From: Vulcanimicrobiota bacterium
Lineage (GTDB): Bacteria > Vulcanimicrobiota > Vulcanimicrobiia > Vulcanimicrobiales > Vulcanimicrobiaceae
Assembly: GCA_027459645.1 (NCBI GenBank)
Contig: DAIDHQ010000019.1
Coordinates: 62,001 to 126,000 of the forward strand
DNA: 64,000 nucleotides
Direction of reading: 5' to 3'
Shown: piece after piece, positions 49,115-55,301 of the stretch
How the letters are laid out: each line of letters begins with the position of its first letter
Position numbering within the stretch: the first letter of the stretch is position 1
The notes under the pieces: model-generated
The model's input: only the letters and a program-made list of their open reading frames with translations
What the model was told of the DNA's origin: nothing
Databases searched by the model: none
Made by a program: the position numbers and the translations under genes

Positions 49115-49152
49115 CGCAGGTTCTCCTTACGGCTTGGCAAATCCAGTAATCT

Positions 49153-49737
49153 GTGGCGAGATCGCGAGAAGAAGTCCTGAATATTGCGCTCGCGCGCGCG
49201 ATCAATTCGTACGCGCTCGAGGCGTCGCCCGAATCCATCATATCTGCACCGAAGAGCCGCCAGCTTCCCGACGTGTTGTTGGATGTTAACGGCCTTCGAA
49301 CGATTATTGAGGGTAAGGTGGATGATGTACCTAATGCGCGGAAGAGTGTCGAAGCGGATGTTCAAGATCGCCTAGATACTGGTGCCGCGATCATCGCAAT
49401 TGGCGTCATTTACCCGAGAGCGCTCAGGGAGCTCGGAATTCAGGAGCTTGATGAAATTCTTCCGAAGGCAGGGCTTCAGTATACAGTGCGAACCGACTCA
49501 TACGGATCGGGTTGGATGGAGGGATCAGCGGATTCCATCGTCGAGGCCCTTCACCGAGCTTACTCAGTCGCGGTGGAAGACGACGTAGTGACCGCTTCGG
49601 TTCACGCTATTTCCATTGGCATGAATCAGTTGGTTCAAATTATTCAACAAAATGCGGTTGCGGCAGAAAACCTCGCGGTCTTCCTAGGAGTCTACGAGGC
49701 TGAAAAGGCTCAGGACGGTGAGAATGCCGATGAGTAA
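49153..49737 (+). CDS. Predicted PD-(D/E)XK nuclease paired with a DNA methylase
   Basis: No family is recognised with certainty. The 194-residue product contains PDVLLDVNGLRTIIEGK (D40, then E53-G54-K55), the spacing and context of a PD-(D/E)XK nuclease active site. A helix with charged and polar residues follows (SVEADVQDRLDTG), then an alternating strand AIIAIGVIYP. The GTG start has no good ribosome-binding site. Its last codons overlap the start of the downstream methylase, so the two are translated together. Codon use and GC are visibly lower than in the flanking genes. A restriction subunit is the favoured role. Confidence 0.55.
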   Translation: MARSREEVLNIALARAINSYALEASPESIISAPKSRQLPDVLLDVNGLRTIIEGKVDDVPNARKSVEADVQDRLDTGAAIIAIGVIYPRALRELGIQELDEILPKAGLQYTVRTDSYGSGWMEGSADSIVEALHRAYSVAVEDDVVTASVHAISIGMNQLVQIIQQNAVAAENLAVFLGVYEAEKAQDGENADE

Positions 49738-52057
49738 AAGGGACGACCGTAAACGTCATAAGATCGCTGGCCAATTAGCCAGCTTAACATTAGCGAACGC
49801 CCTAATCTTTCACAATGAATTATCGGAACGGGTCTCGGGCGTGCGGAGACCGGCTAGTATTTTGTCGTCGTCCGACCCGATCACGGATCTAGGCGCAGAG
49901 TGGCTCGAAATCAGCACGACTATAGACTACAAACCGATTTTTGACGTTGCCCGACAGGTTCTTAGCTTGCTCCCGCTGCGGGTTGAGACACACGACGCTA
50001 TTAGAGAATTAGATAACGCGGCAAGGAGAATTATTTCTAATCGCGCTGCGTTGAAACATGATCTAATGGGCCGGATTTATCACACGCTGCTTTTGGATGC
50101 AAAGTTCCTCGGAACGTTCTATACATCGGTTCCTGCTGCAACGCTACTAATGAAGTTTGCGCTAAATCCAAAAAGTTGGGCCGTCAATTGGAGCGACCTA
50201 ACTGCCGTAGCCGATTTGCGAGTCGCTGATTTAGCGTGCGGAACCGGTACGCTACTAATGGCAGCAGAGCAGGCGTTGGTCGATAACCACGTAAGGGCGC
50301 GCGTCCGTGAGGGTAAGCCGATCGGCGCAGAAGATCTGCGCAACATCCATCGCGCTCTAATTGAGGAAGCAATCTACGGTTACGACGTCCTTTCGTCAGC
50401 GATCCATTTAACAGCATCGACACTTGCGCTGCTCTCTATCGAGTCATCCTTCAGCAAAATGCATTTGTGGTCGATGGCTTTAGGCGTTGAGGGGATTGGC
50501 GGAGACGTGCATCTTGGAAGTATTGACTTCCTGGGTGCAATGTCAGTGCAGCCACAAATGAGCCTGATGGACACAACAGGTGCATGGGGTGCGGCAAGGC
50601 GTGTTGCCGACAAGGGCGACGAAGTGTCAACGGCTCCCTTACCAATGCTCGACCTGTGCGTGATGAATCCGCCATTCACCCGAAGTGTCGGTGGAAATCT
50701 ACTTTTCGGATCTTTGCCAGCTAAGCAACGAGCATTGATGCAAAAGCGGCTCTCGGCGTTGCTGAAGGAATACAGTAAAAGGAGCCGGACTGCCGTCGCG
50801 TCTGCGACTGCTGGGCTGGCGAGTGTCTTTATAAGTGTTGCGCACGCGCGAATCAAGGAAGGCGGCAGGCTGGCCCTGGTTATACCCGCCGCAGTGTGTA
50901 CGGGGATCGCCTGGGAAAAGACTAGGGACCTTTTTAGGCAGAGCTACGTTCTTGAGTTGTTAGTGACGTCCCATGATCCGCGACGGTGGTCCTTTTCTGA
51001 AAACACCGAGTTAAGTGAAGTTTTGCTGGTTCTCCGAAAGCGACGCTCGAGCGAGAAAAATTCTGCAAAGACAACGGTACTTAACCTTATCCGTAATCCG
51101 AAAAACCCTATCGAAGCGCTGGCTGTAGCAAACCAGGTGCTTAATTTGCAGCGACTTCCAGAAATGTCGAATTGTAACGACCATGCAACGGGCAGCGTTT
51201 TCGTCTCGAATATTAAGTATGGCGAAGCAACGTCGATCTCGTGGACGGAGCTCCGGCGAGCGCCTTGGAAGGCTGGTGCTTTTTCGAAAACAGAGCTTAA
51301 CAAGACTGCGTATTTCCTCGACGCGGGAAAGTTGTACATTCCGGGAAAGCCTCTGTTTGACGTGCCGATAACGACGTTTGGAAAAATTGGAACTGTTGGG
51401 CCAGACCGAAGGGACGTTTACGACGCCTTTAATTTGGTGACGTCGCGCACCCCGTACAGCGCGTGGTGGAGCCATGACTCGAATCGAGTGACCGCAATGT
51501 CAGCCGAGCCGAACGCATTTTTAGAGCCACTGGCAGTAGCTAGGAAAAATCGACCACTTCGTAAGTTGAGCGACGTATGGTCAGGTGCATCTGATGCAAT
51601 GTTGGCAGAGCGAATGTGGATGCCGACCCAAAGAGTGACGAGCGTGTTGCTGCCCGTGCCCGCTGTGTCGAACGTTTGGTGGCCGATCACGTTGAACAGT
51701 GCGGGATCCATGGAGCGGAAACTTTTGGTATTATGGTGGAACTCAACGCTCGGGCTAATATCCTTACTAGCAGCAAGAGTTCCAACACGCGGTCCTTGGT
51801 TGCAATTTAAAAAGCCAACTGTCCATGCACTTCCGGTTCTAAACTTTACGAAATTAGAACCAGATCTGTTGCCAGAGGATCGAGACGTCGATGAGCTACT
51901 CCACAAAGAGATGCAGCCATTTCCTGATATGCATTCTGACCCAGTGAGGAAACAGATTGACGCGCTTTTTTGCCAATTGTTGCGTATCCCCGATATTCGG
52001 GTCCTCAGGGACCTCTTGAGCATCGAACCAGTTGTAACGGACCAAACGGCTCAGTAG
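49730..52057 (+). CDS. N6-adenine DNA methyltransferase (type I/IIG-like)
   Basis: The ATG at 49730 lies 7 bp after GGTGAGA and overlaps the nuclease stop; GTG 49718 and ATG 49724 are alternatives. The roughly 775-residue protein has SAM motif I (VADLACGTGTLL) near residue 167, catalytic motif IV NPPF near 315, and a helical N-terminal domain as in HsdM/Eco57I-like enzymes. The region after about 430 would hold target recognition. No nuclease motif is seen in it, so the small upstream gene may supply cleavage. GC and codon use mark it as horizontally acquired. Confidence 0.8.
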   Translation: MSKRDDRKRHKIAGQLASLTLANALIFHNELSERVSGVRRPASILSSSDPITDLGAEWLEISTTIDYKPIFDVARQVLSLLPLRVETHDAIRELDNAARRIISNRAALKHDLMGRIYHTLLLDAKFLGTFYTSVPAATLLMKFALNPKSWAVNWSDLTAVADLRVADLACGTGTLLMAAEQALVDNHVRARVREGKPIGAEDLRNIHRALIEEAIYGYDVLSSAIHLTASTLALLSIESSFSKMHLWSMALGVEGIGGDVHLGSIDFLGAMSVQPQMSLMDTTGAWGAARRVADKGDEVSTAPLPMLDLCVMNPPFTRSVGGNLLFGSLPAKQRALMQKRLSALLKEYSKRSRTAVASATAGLASVFISVAHARIKEGGRLALVIPAAVCTGIAWEKTRDLFRQSYVLELLVTSHDPRRWSFSENTELSEVLLVLRKRRSSEKNSAKTTVLNLIRNPKNPIEALAVANQVLNLQRLPEMSNCNDHATGSVFVSNIKYGEATSISWTELRRAPWKAGAFSKTELNKTAYFLDAGKLYIPGKPLFDVPITTFGKIGTVGPDRRDVYDAFNLVTSRTPYSAWWSHDSNRVTAMSAEPNAFLEPLAVARKNRPLRKLSDVWSGASDAMLAERMWMPTQRVTSVLLPVPAVSNVWWPITLNSAGSMERKLLVLWWNSTLGLISLLAARVPTRGPWLQFKKPTVHALPVLNFTKLEPDLLPEDRDVDELLHKEMQPFPDMHSDPVRKQIDALFCQLLRIPDIRVLRDLLSIEPVVTDQTAQ

Positions 52058-52073
52058 TCTCGGATGGGCTGTT

Positions 52074-52120
52074 TTGTCGGCGCCTTTGTAGCAAGCGCGC
52101 CACCGACAAGCCTTCTTTTT
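52074..52120 (+). terminator. Possible terminator after the methylase
   Basis: TTGTCGGCGC (52074-52083) can pair, with a small bulge, with GCGCCACCGACAA (52097-52109), followed by CTTCTTTTT. It lies 17 bp after the stop codon. The stem is imperfect. Confidence 0.4.
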
Positions 52121-52252
52121 GTCAGTGCGGGCCAGCTCCAGTGGGGGCATGGTTTTTAGCGGCGCGGCGCGCGCGGAAGCACATGATCGTCAAGAGCAGG
52201 CCGAATTCGCCCAGTAGCGACGGCAAAGGGTCTATGCAGCTGGCCTTCGTGC

Positions 52253-52291
52253 TCTCATCTCACTCTCATCTAGTTCACCAGCCGTCCTCAA
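52253..52291 (+). promoter_or_regulatory. 11-bp-spaced direct repeat and putative promoter of the efflux adaptor
   Basis: TCTCATCT occurs at 52253-52260 and again at 52264-52271, one helical turn apart, the arrangement bound by OmpR/PhoB-type regulators. The segment CGTCCTCAAG, 12 bp downstream, aligns at the same distance with the MacB upstream region (60580-60618). Confidence 0.55.
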
Positions 52292-52324
52292 GGGGTAGCG
52301 CGAGAATGATGTCGGAGGAATCTG

Positions 52325-53887
52325 ATGTCTACTCAAACCCTTGCGGCCCCTCGGGGCGCGTCTGATGTGGGCCGATCGCTCGGCCGGCTCTTCAACAATA
52401 TCCCCCGCTGGGTGCTCGTTGCGCTGGCGCTACTCGTCATCGCGGCGTTGGTCGTCGCCACGGTCCTGACCCGCGCGAGCAGCACGCCGCAGGTCGTTAC
52501 GACGCCGGTCGCCCGCCAGACGCTCTCCCAGTCCGTCACGGCCTCGGGAACGGTCAACGCGCAGAATAGCGTGACCGTCGGCAGCCAAGTCTCGGGCACG
52601 ATCTCGGACCTCTACGTCGATTTCAATTCGAAGGTCCACCAGGGGCAAATCCTCGCGAGGCTCGATCCCAGCTCGCTGCAGGCGCAGCTCGCTCGCGATC
52701 AGGCGCAACTCGCGCAAGCGCAAGCACAAGCCAATGAAGCCGCCGCAAATGCAAGCGGTGCCGGCTCGGGCGTAAGCGTCGCGCAGGCCAACGCCAATGC
52801 GCAAGCCGCCGCCGCAAATGCCGCCAAGACGAATATCGCCAAGGCGCAATCGGCGCTCGCGCTCGCGCAGCAGCAATACAACCGCGATAACACGCTGCTC
52901 TCGCAAGGCTATATCGCGCGGGCAACGGTGCAGTCCGACGCGGCAACCGTCTCGCAAGATGAAGCCGCGGTAGCACAGGCGCAAGCGGCGTATGCACAAG
53001 CCTTAGCGCAAGCGCAGGCAAGCCAGGCGACGATCGGGCAGAACGGCTCGACCGCGCAAGCGCAAGCCGCCAGTGCCGATGCAGCGCAAGCTGCGGTGCA
53101 AGCTGCCGCCGCAACCGTGCAGCAGGATCGACTGAATCTGCAGCATTCGATCATCACCTCGCCGGTCAACGGCACCGTCGTCTCGCGCGCGGTGAGCGTC
53201 GGGCAAACGGTTGCGGCATCGCTGCAAGCGCCGACCCTCTTCACGATCGCGCAAGATCTTGCGAAAATGCAGGTCGATATCAACGTCGGCGAACCGGATA
53301 TCGGCGGCGTGAAGAAGGGTGACACGGTCGATTTCACGGTGCTCGCCTACCCGAACACCACCTTCCACGGCGTGGTCGATCAAGTGCGCATCAACCCGCA
53401 AACCGTCAATAACGTCGTGACCTACGACGTGGTCGTAAACGCGGACAACGCCGACGGCAAACTGCTGCCGGGCATGACCGCCAACGCTACGATCAACGTC
53501 GCGAGCGCACCGAACGCCCTCGTGGTTCCGCTGACGGCGCTGCACGCCCGAGGAGGCGCTTCTTCGACTACGCTTCGCTCCGCTCAGAATAACAAAGCGC
53601 CGCAGAGCCGCAGCCCGTGGGGCGGCACGACCAGCGTCAGCAGCGGCAGCATCGCGACCGGTCAGCACGCCGTGCTGCTGGTGCGGCGCAACGGCAAACT
53701 GCAACCGGTGCGCGTGCAAGTCGGGCTCATCACCGCCACGCAAGCCGCCGTCACGCCGGTCAACGGCTCGACGCTGAGCGAAGGTGACAACGTCGTCACG
53801 GCGTTCACCAGCGGTGCGAAATATAGCGGCGGCAATGCCTCGCGCAGCCCGCTGCAAGCGCGCGGTCCGCACGCCCGCGTCCCGTAA
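52325..53887 (+). CDS. MacA/HlyD-type efflux periplasmic adaptor
   Basis: The 520-residue product starts after GGAGGAATCTG. It has a cytoplasmic N-tail, one transmembrane helix (about 29-50), a lipoyl-like domain (VTASGTVNAQNSVTVGSQVSG), a long Ala/Gln coiled-coil hairpin (about 115-265), the second lipoyl half (SPVNGTVVSRAVSVGQTVAA) and a beta-barrel (LAKMQVDINVGEPDIGGVKKG). It should link an inner-membrane ABC transporter to an outer-membrane channel; the MacB-like transporter lies at 60651. Residues about 412-424 (SSTTLRSAQNNKA) are the translation of an inserted dispersed repeat. Its last about 153 codons are duplicated at 54842. Confidence 0.9.
   Translation: MSTQTLAAPRGASDVGRSLGRLFNNIPRWVLVALALLVIAALVVATVLTRASSTPQVVTTPVARQTLSQSVTASGTVNAQNSVTVGSQVSGTISDLYVDFNSKVHQGQILARLDPSSLQAQLARDQAQLAQAQAQANEAAANASGAGSGVSVAQANANAQAAAANAAKTNIAKAQSALALAQQQYNRDNTLLSQGYIARATVQSDAATVSQDEAAVAQAQAAYAQALAQAQASQATIGQNGSTAQAQAASADAAQAAVQAAAATVQQDRLNLQHSIITSPVNGTVVSRAVSVGQTVAASLQAPTLFTIAQDLAKMQVDINVGEPDIGGVKKGDTVDFTVLAYPNTTFHGVVDQVRINPQTVNNVVTYDVVVNADNADGKLLPGMTANATINVASAPNALVVPLTALHARGGASSTTLRSAQNNKAPQSRSPWGGTTSVSSGSIATGQHAVLLVRRNGKLQPVRVQVGLITATQAAVTPVNGSTLSEGDNVVTAFTSGAKYSGGNASRSPLQARGPHARVP
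53560..53594. repeat. Dispersed repeat read in frame inside the efflux adaptor
   Basis: TCTTCGACTACGCTTCGCTCCGCTCAGAATAACA matches the reverse-oriented repeat CTTCGTCTACGCTGCGCTCCGCTCAGGATGACA seen at 37.85 kb. The duplicate copy at about 54974-55008 keeps the consensus GAATGACA. Confidence 0.8.
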
Positions 53888-53916
53888 GCGGCGAACCTTC
53901 ACGACACGGGTTCCTC

Positions 53917-53942
53917 AGGGGCGGCGCTACGGCGTCGCCCCT
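53917..53942 (+). terminator. Possible terminator after the efflux adaptor
   Basis: AGGGGCG (53917-53923) pairs with CGCCCCT (53936-53942), with extra inner pairing, 30 bp after the stop. Only a weak pyrimidine run follows. Confidence 0.45.
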
Positions 53943-53971
53943 CTTCGTAGGCGCGGCGGACGATGGAGACT

Positions 53972-54001
53972 GTTGCAACGTGTAACGGTACATGTTACAA
54001 T
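53972..54001 (+). promoter_or_regulatory. higBA promoter with overlapping operator
   Basis: TTGCAA (53972-53977), an 18-bp spacer and TACAAT (53996-54001) form a promoter. The perfect inverted repeat TGTAAC (53981-53986) / GTTACA (53994-53999) overlaps the -10 and is a likely HigA binding site. The higB ATG is 9 bp after the -10, so the leader is very short or absent. Confidence 0.7.
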
Positions 54002-54010
54002 ATCCGACGC

Positions 54011-54301
54011 ATGGAGCGGTTCTTTGACTCGGCTACCGCGGACATCTACGAGGGACACGTCTCGGCCGCGGCCCGCAGATCGTTGCCACCGCATCTCCAT
54101 TCCACAGCACAACGCAAATTAGCCATGGTGCTGGCAGCCGCGCAACTTGCCGACCTGCGTTTTCCGCCGGGCAATGAGCTCGAAACGCTCAGCGGTAATC
54201 ATGACGGCCAACACAGTATTCGAATCAACCGCCAATATCGCGTCTGCTTCGTCTGGACCGATCAAGGAGCAACGCGAATCGAAGTGGCCGACTATCATTA
54301 A
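54011..54301 (+). CDS. higB: HigB-type toxin (RelE superfamily)
   Basis: The 96-residue product (ATG 54011) matches plasmid-maintenance killer proteins. The C-terminal half has FPPGNELETLSGNHDGQHSIRI, NRQYRVCFVW and VADYH, the RelE-fold mRNA-interferase end that cleaves mRNA on the ribosome. The longer frame from 53963 would run through the promoter and is not credible. The antitoxin higA follows 56 bp later. The pair lies between two copies of the efflux adaptor 3' end. Confidence 0.9.
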   Translation: MERFFDSATADIYEGHVSAAARRSLPPHLHSTAQRKLAMVLAAAQLADLRFPPGNELETLSGNHDGQHSIRINRQYRVCFVWTDQGATRIEVADYH

Positions 54302-54357
54302 TTCAGTCCACCTCCGTTATTGCAGATGCAATCAGACGGGAAAGGACTTCAAATCTT

Positions 54358-54675
54358 ATGAGTCTGAGTATCCCTATTCCGAAGAATCGACGCCCAACCA
54401 GCCCGGGCGAGATTATTACCGAAGAGTTTTTGAAGCCGCTAGACATTACGCAGCAGCAACTGGCCGATGCGATGAAGATTTCTCGCGTTCGTCTGAACGA
54501 AATTTTGAATGGCCGTCGTGGCATAAGCCCCGACACGGCGCTGCGCCTCGAGCGCGTGCTGGGGCCGTCAGCGCAATTCTGGCTGAACCTTCAAATGGTC
54601 GTTGACCTTTACGAAACGGAGCATGCGTCGAACCAGCGCGAACTTGCGTCGTTAAAGCGCTTAGTTTCCGCTTAA
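54358..54675 (+). CDS. higA: HigA-type antitoxin (XRE family)
   Basis: The 105-residue product begins with the HigA-typical PTSPGEIITEEFLKPL and has a helix-turn-helix (QQQLADAMKISRVRLNEILNG), then RGISPDTALRLERVLG and SAQFWLNLQ. It neutralises HigB and represses its own promoter. An ATG follows the short AT-rich gap after higB. Confidence 0.93.
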   Translation: MSLSIPIPKNRRPTSPGEIITEEFLKPLDITQQQLADAMKISRVRLNEILNGRRGISPDTALRLERVLGPSAQFWLNLQMVVDLYETEHASNQRELASLKRLVSA

Positions 54676-54705
54676 AGCGTCACTTCAGCGTGCAGAAGGG
54701 TCAAG

Positions 54706-54787
54706 ATTCCCGGCGCGGCCTGGCGCATCGCCCAAGCCGGCGGCGGCCGGCGTTCCCGCGGCGCGTTTTGCTAAGAAGCTGGCGTAA
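54706..54787. repeat. 82-bp repeat, copy A
   Basis: From ATTCCCGGCGCGGCCTGGCG through GCTAAGAAGCTGGCGTAA this closely matches 56620-56701, differing at only a few positions. It directly joins a fragment (54790-54814) identical to part of the Uma2 gene at 56776-56800, so copy A looks like an internally deleted version of the right-hand locus. Confidence 0.85.
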
Positions 54788-54807
54788 CCACGCAGCGTGG
54801 TTACGCC
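54781..54807. other. Perfect 11-bp hairpin at the duplication boundary
   Basis: GGCGTAACCAC (54781-54791) and GTGGTTACGCC (54797-54807) are perfectly complementary around a 5-nt loop. The hairpin is created by the junction of the 82-bp repeat and the Uma2-derived fragment and sits just before the adaptor-gene duplicate. It has no T-run. Confidence 0.6.
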
Positions 54808-54834
54808 GTCCCGCGCGGCGCCTTCCGCTCTTCC

Positions 54835-55301
54835 CCTACGACCGCGTCGTAAACGCGGACAACGCCGACGGCAAACTGCTGCCGGGCATGACCGCCAACG
54901 CTACGATCAACGTCGCGAGCGCGCCGAACGCTCTCGTGGTTCCGCTGACGGCGCTGCACGCCCGAGGAGGCGCTTCTTCGACTACGCTTCGCTCCGCTCA
55001 GAATGACAAAGCGCCGCAGAGCCACAGCCCGTGGGGCGGCACGATCAGCGTCAGCAGTGGCAGTATCGCGAGCGGCCAGCACGCCGTGTTGCTGGTGCAA
55101 CGCAACGGCAAACTGCAGCCGGTGCGCGTGCAAGTCGGCCTCATCACCGCCACGCAAGCCGCCGTCACGCCGGTCAACGGCTCGACGCTAAGCGAAGGTG
55201 ACAACGTCGTCACGGCCTTCACCAGCGGTGCGAAATACAGCGGCGGCAACGCCTCGCGCAGCCCGCTGCAAGCGCGCGGGCCGCACGCCCGCGTCCCGTA
55301 A
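54835..55301 (+). pseudogene. Duplicated 3' end of the efflux adaptor gene
   Basis: The sequence from about 54842 to 55301 repeats 53428-53887 with few differences. It encodes the same C-terminal barrel end (NADNADGKLLPGMTANATINV through GPHARVP), in frame but without a start or the upstream domains. The offset is 1414 bp. Together with the intact gene it forms a direct repeat of about 460 bp that brackets higBA. A strong terminator follows at 55335. Confidence 0.92.

Follow-up and report, generated by a model that had tools for sequence, protein, structure and literature searches.

A two-gene restriction-modification candidate resembling a split type IIG enzyme, in a Vulcanimicrobiota genome and in other phyla

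Type IIG restriction enzymes are described as single polypeptides that hold both the cleavage and the methylation domain (PMC4081073). The layouts listed in Table 4 of PMC3874165 are R~M~S or R~M + S only; R + M~S, in which a free nuclease subunit would stand beside a methylase that has its own specificity part, is not listed. The one precedent that the literature search turned up for such a division is a hypothesis on Haloferax volcanii, in which a nuclease fragment and a methylase, HVO_A0006 and HVO_A0237, were proposed to be a split type IIG (PMC4389544, PMC5867850); a triple deletion revealed no role in adenine methylation (PMC5867850). The overlapping genes described here probably encode a two-subunit R + gamma-M~S restriction-modification enzyme that works like type IIG.

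The pair lies in a window of 64,000 nt (the whole stretch of DNA that was analysed: contig DAIDHQ010000019.1, positions 62,001-126,000 of the forward strand, from the Vulcanimicrobiota bacterium assembly GCA_027459645.1). The features discussed below are these, each with its basis in brackets:

49115-52324, + strand: segment from recR to the efflux adaptor, best read as horizontally inserted (empty site in the relative G057, GC content)
49153-49737, + strand: nuclease (R) subunit, PD-(D/E)XK type (open reading frame, GTG start, 194 aa)
49267-49317, + strand: catalytic motif PD39-40 ... E53-G54-K55 (conservation in 65 homologues)
49528-49686, + strand: long C-terminal helices, residues 126-178, a putative docking or connector element (secondary structure of the model)
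49688-49737, + strand: junction with both frames open (linker position shared with 21 other split loci)
49730-52057, + strand: methylase and specificity subunit, a gamma-class N6-adenine methyltransferase (open reading frame, PF02384, fold matches)
50228-50257, + strand: SAM-binding motif DLACGTGTLL (unchanged in 52 of 65 homologues; the others differ slightly)
50666-50677, + strand: catalytic motif NPPF of the gamma class of m6A enzymes (identical in 65 of 65 homologues)
51050-52054, + strand: C-terminal region with a predicted target-recognition domain, residues ~445-779 (model, fold matches)

Both open reading frames occupy 49153-52057, where an earlier note on this DNA had placed them, and they are flanked, as it had said, by recR on one side and an efflux adaptor gene, of the HlyD type, on the other. 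The low-GC island that it had described is real: the pair has 52.1% GC vs 62.8% for the remaining window and is the lowest among 245 windows of equal size. A full-length methylase match occurs in one of 149 genomes of the phylum, the window's own, and the pair was not found in the other 148 that were searched. In the family relative G057, the adaptor gene comes immediately after dnaX, ybaB and recR, leaving an empty site; the pair thus sits inside an otherwise contiguous gene order. From its base composition, its absence in the phylum genomes and the empty site in G057, the pair is best read as a horizontal insertion. No repeats of at least 9 bases common to both edges of the insert were found, and promoter and terminator scans gave results at chance level only.

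The surroundings offer further observations. After the end of the adaptor gene lies a HigB/HigA-type toxin-antitoxin pair (53963-54301 and 54358-54675; Pfam), flanked by a 467-bp copy of that gene end (53421-53887 versus 54835-55301, 445 of 467 positions identical); the arrangement (53421-55301) looks as if it had been inserted with a long target duplication. The assembly holds a second recR at the start of contig C7 (G000:C7:174-752), 76% identical to that of the window, which may be a paralogue or a sign that a foreign contig was binned with this genome. Two more N6_Mtase-family genes are present in the same genome (G000:C6:114078-115013 and G000:C28:35347-36384, in open frames of 506 and 759 aa).

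The small protein is laid out as an N-terminal core and a C-terminal pair of long helices: its AlphaFold2 model (pLDDT 85) runs helix-strand-strand-helix-strand and then continues into the two helices, with D40 and E53-x-K55 on neighbouring strands. Rows from plasmid records were excluded from the input for structure prediction. The PD...E-G-K site pointed out in the earlier note is present, and P39, D40 and E53 are invariant in 65/65 homologues; position 55, K in the window, is K in 51, E in 13 and R in 1. The motif and the alpha-beta-beta-alpha-beta model support a PD-(D/E)XK fold for this protein, but a PDB fold search with the model returned no match at E <= 0.001; pyrophosphatases came out best, and Hjc resolvases, a Cas4-like protein and bunyavirus endonucleases appeared weakly, lower down. 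No convincing match came from searching the PDB by sequence (AF1548 is among the weak ones), and Pfam, NCBIfam and PADLOC contained no family that scored above cut-off for this protein. Because the fold search is inconclusive, three things carry the assignment as a nuclease: the motif, the invariance of this motif and the place that it has in the fused homologues; the protein is 32-33% identical to the N-terminal ~185 aa of the fused plasmid proteins. Comparison with the fused forms also suggests that the C-terminal helices may act as a docking or connector element.

The homologues with E-G-E at the nuclease site (L028, L029, L031, L032, L036, L037, L039, L040, L041, L042, L044, L053 and L083) include both fused and split forms, and the site of L045 reads E-G-R. 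Some known restriction enzymes, e.g., BamHI, likewise lack the lysine.

The large open reading frame yields 775 aa from ATG 49730 and 779 aa from GTG 49718; ATG 49724 is a further alternative, and ATG 49730 fits the family alignment best. The protein scores above the PF02384 gathering threshold and contains both DLACGTGTLL and NPPF, the motifs from which a methylase had originally been recognised. Its model (pLDDT 87, pTM 0.85) matches the folds of CamA (E 9e-16) and BpuSI (3s1s, E 2e-15) and also those of BrxX and M.BseCI, in alignments of 680-970 columns that are nearly full length. Matches of this extent to M~TRD structures indicate that a single chain carries the methylase together with a C-terminal recognition part. 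The earlier note saw no specificity subunit, and no S gene is adjacent; this lack is not a gap, since the methylase itself has a C-terminal specificity region, as the CamA, BpuSI and BrxX matches indicate.

The nearest named homologues are single fused proteins of ~950-970 aa with the nuclease at the N-terminus. Two of them, WP_108610813 (Aminobacter MSH1 pUSP4, 947 aa) and WP_126447967 (Sulfuricystis pSTJ1, 971 aa), contain both parts in one frame and are homologous over their full length, at 39% identity in the methylase and 32% in the nuclease. More distant one-chain relatives are found on a Methanothermobacter plasmid, in Halorubrum viruses (annotated as type IIG) and on a Nitrosospira plasmid. 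A scan of genome contigs with the single methylase sequence returned no match; a scan with a three-sequence profile recovered 79 genome loci and 3 viral-contig loci, and removal of fragments and broken copies left 65 clean loci, the window included. The fused form accounts for 43 of these and the split form for 22, again counting the window. The cut of every split locus falls in one shared linker, where the two domain models lie 37-79 nt apart, and the split form occurs in at least eight phyla besides the window's: by record titles, its hosts include members of Chloroflexota, Thermodesulfobacteriota, Myxococcota, Calditrichota, Acidobacteriota, Pseudomonadota, Bacteroidota, Cryosericota and Caldifarciminota.

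The two genes also travel together. Twenty whole genomes with split loci contain 22 nuclease and 22 methylase copies, every pair adjacent, and among the split loci nuclease and methylase distances correlate with r = 0.90, a value reached in 0 of 999 permutations. All close-family loci with enough upstream sequence have the nuclease, and no conserved third gene was found in the homologous loci. Absence of the pair elsewhere was one of two outcomes that the earlier note had named as refuting its proposal, and the loci show the opposite. Of the readings that the note offered, a split type IIG-like system is the one supported: the nearest named homologues are fused single chains, and the two-gene version recurs, always paired. 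Judged by sequence comparison, the two-gene form is a recurring natural arrangement, not a local accident.

The family also includes decayed or doubtful members. About ten copies carry obvious stops or frameshifts, scattered over places other than the usual split point, so decay does happen among homologues of the pair; such copies (L020, L071, L075, L076, L077, L080, L085, L088 and L093) reflect either decayed genes or sequencing errors in draft genomes. One Chloroflexi contig (JACAEN010000040.1) carries two split pairs, L025 and L026, in opposite orientation and ~11 kb apart; their match scores are equal, and the arrangement may be a genuine inverted duplication or may have arisen during assembly. 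Identity between the window methylase and those of the other split loci does not exceed 48-49%, which leaves no relative close enough for a test of purifying selection.

At the window junction, the nuclease stop TAA (49735-49737) overlaps the methylase start at ATG 49730 by 8 nt, and the methylase frame is +1 relative to that of the nuclease. The overlap varies across the 21 other split loci: ten have 4 nt, three have 1 nt and six have 8-20 nt; of the remaining two, one has a TTG 3 nt past the stop and the other is ambiguous. Such stop/start overlaps are usual for coupled genes in an operon. Across the split loci the frame offset is +1 in 8, +2 in 13 and 0 in 1, a variation that makes a shared programmed frameshift unlikely and fits separate translation. 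Two other devices were considered and rejected: phase variation, with no homopolymer longer than 4 at the window junction and none longer than 7 in the other split loci, and transposon splitting as in Haloferax, which does not apply because the genes are adjacent in the window.

The family tree requires at least 7 changes between the fused and split states, at least 5 of them forced by well-supported branches. Under a site-heterogeneous model with distant one-chain outgroups, the window joins three split loci, those of Mesorhizobium, KSB1 and Calditrichota, with support 89; under a simpler model the node that joins the window to split loci is unresolved. The one-chain state of the outgroups may mean that fusion is the older state, although they sit on long branches. 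On balance, we lean towards seeing in R + gamma-M~S an architecture that has gone unrecognised and is stably maintained, present in at least eight phyla besides the window's, with repeated natural fission and fusion of the nuclease.

Several other histories would leave a similar locus. The one that deserves most weight, though unlikely, is that a fused type IIG gene was recently broken by a one-base frameshift, in which case the methylase may work and restriction would be lost. In both frames homology extends as far as the junction, the pattern that addition of a single base would give, several homologous copies elsewhere are clearly broken, and the window's genome alone has the pair within its phylum. 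Yet 21 other loci are split in the very linker that is interrupted here, and chance would put a break within these ~20 codons of a ~970-codon gene in ~2% of cases; start codons are in place with the 8-nt overlap, both frames are otherwise intact, the catalytic residues are kept, and the tree puts the window with split relatives. It is quite improbable that the real gene is fused and the break is a sequencing or assembly error: the genome is a draft in 47 contigs and runs of A4 and G3 adjoin the junction, but the longest homopolymer within 60 nt is 4, loss of an A from the run beside TAA leaves the stop intact, and independent loci from unrelated assemblies share the linker position. Programmed +1 frameshifting, which would yield some fused protein besides the separate nuclease, is very improbable. 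An offset that varies among split loci and includes the 0 frame cannot be a general device, and no recognised slippery site is seen at the window junction, even though the methylase frame is indeed +1 and stays open both for 42 nt before ATG 49730 and past the nuclease stop.

The remaining rivals concern the kind of enzyme. Among type II systems the layout met most often has R and M in separate genes, and the pair could in principle be an orthodox one in which the small nuclease recognises its site by itself; this is highly improbable, as its 194 aa correspond wholly to the cleavage domain at the N-terminus of the fused homologues, with nothing left over for a recognition domain, and the nuclease never occurs apart from the methylase in the 20 genomes. 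The least probable reading of all is the modification-dependent or otherwise different defence system that the earlier note had suggested as its other option. A weak, sub-cutoff match to the MADS methylase Mad2 (25 bits vs a cut-off of 720) points that way; the homologous loci share no third gene and no MADS, BREX or DISARM partner adjoins the pair, and the suggestion is left without support.

The preferred reading, a two-subunit enzyme that works like type IIG, predicts a division of labour between the chains. The large subunit would bind SAM, methylate an adenine and use its own C-terminal region to recognise a specific DNA site. The small PD-(D/E)XK subunit, having no recognition domain of its own, would attach to the methylase at the helical domain of the latter's N-terminus, most likely through the C-terminal helices of the nuclease, and would cut unmodified DNA at some distance from the site; in the fused homologues this domain would act likewise. 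Both genes may be translated in coupling through their 8-nt overlap. Such an enzyme would be expected to serve in defence, with phages as its likely targets.

If this is true, a separate R subunit would allow cutting to be controlled, for example by its level or by assembly, independently of methylation, an option not open to a fused type IIG enzyme. When the nuclease domain of a type I enzyme was joined to its methylase in the laboratory, restriction was lost (PMC6158711). The repeated natural changes between fused and two-gene forms provide matched pairs for questions on how the nuclease docks and how it is held off during methylation, and allow asking whether a free nuclease subunit alters self-protection or spread. 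The nuclease is also an added marker: with no Pfam or PADLOC model that scores above cut-off, it would go unnamed beside its methylase. In the open literature no report of the recurring two-gene form was found; REBASE and subscription papers lay outside this scope, and a REBASE entry is possible.

Set against described systems, the pair differs from type I restriction-modification: its R subunit of 194 aa has no helicase motor, and no HsdS gene is adjacent. With BREX (PglX/BrxX) the methylase shares a fold resemblance only; the BREX-6 model scores far below its cut-off and conserved partners are absent. The MADS comparison ends at the Mad2 score given above. CamA and M.BseCI share the M~TRD fold and are among the top structural matches to the window methylase, but the matched entries are methylases only, whereas the window encodes a nuclease subunit alongside. 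RM + S enzymes likewise consist of two proteins with a gamma-class methylase; they divide differently, the window being split as R + M~S. In the type IIB (BcgI-like) layout, an RM fusion is combined with an S subunit that has two TRDs, whereas here R is separate and S lies in the methylase. The Haloferax genes HVO_A0006 and HVO_A0237 also comprise a separate nuclease fragment and a methylase of the type IIG kind, but they lie ~230 genes apart, flanked by transposition genes, whereas the window genes overlap and their arrangement recurs in many genomes. The Aminobacter and Sulfuricystis homologues are alike over their full length and differ in being one polypeptide where the window has two. Closest in content is type IIG itself (BpuSI, Eco57I, MmeI; PMC3874165, PMC4081073): the window has the gamma-class m6A methylase with its SAM motif and NPPF, the ~200-aa PD...EGK module upstream and the specificity module at the C-terminus, in the same domain order. 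The difference is that R and M~S are two proteins, encoded by overlapping genes in different frames with a stop between them, in place of the single chain.
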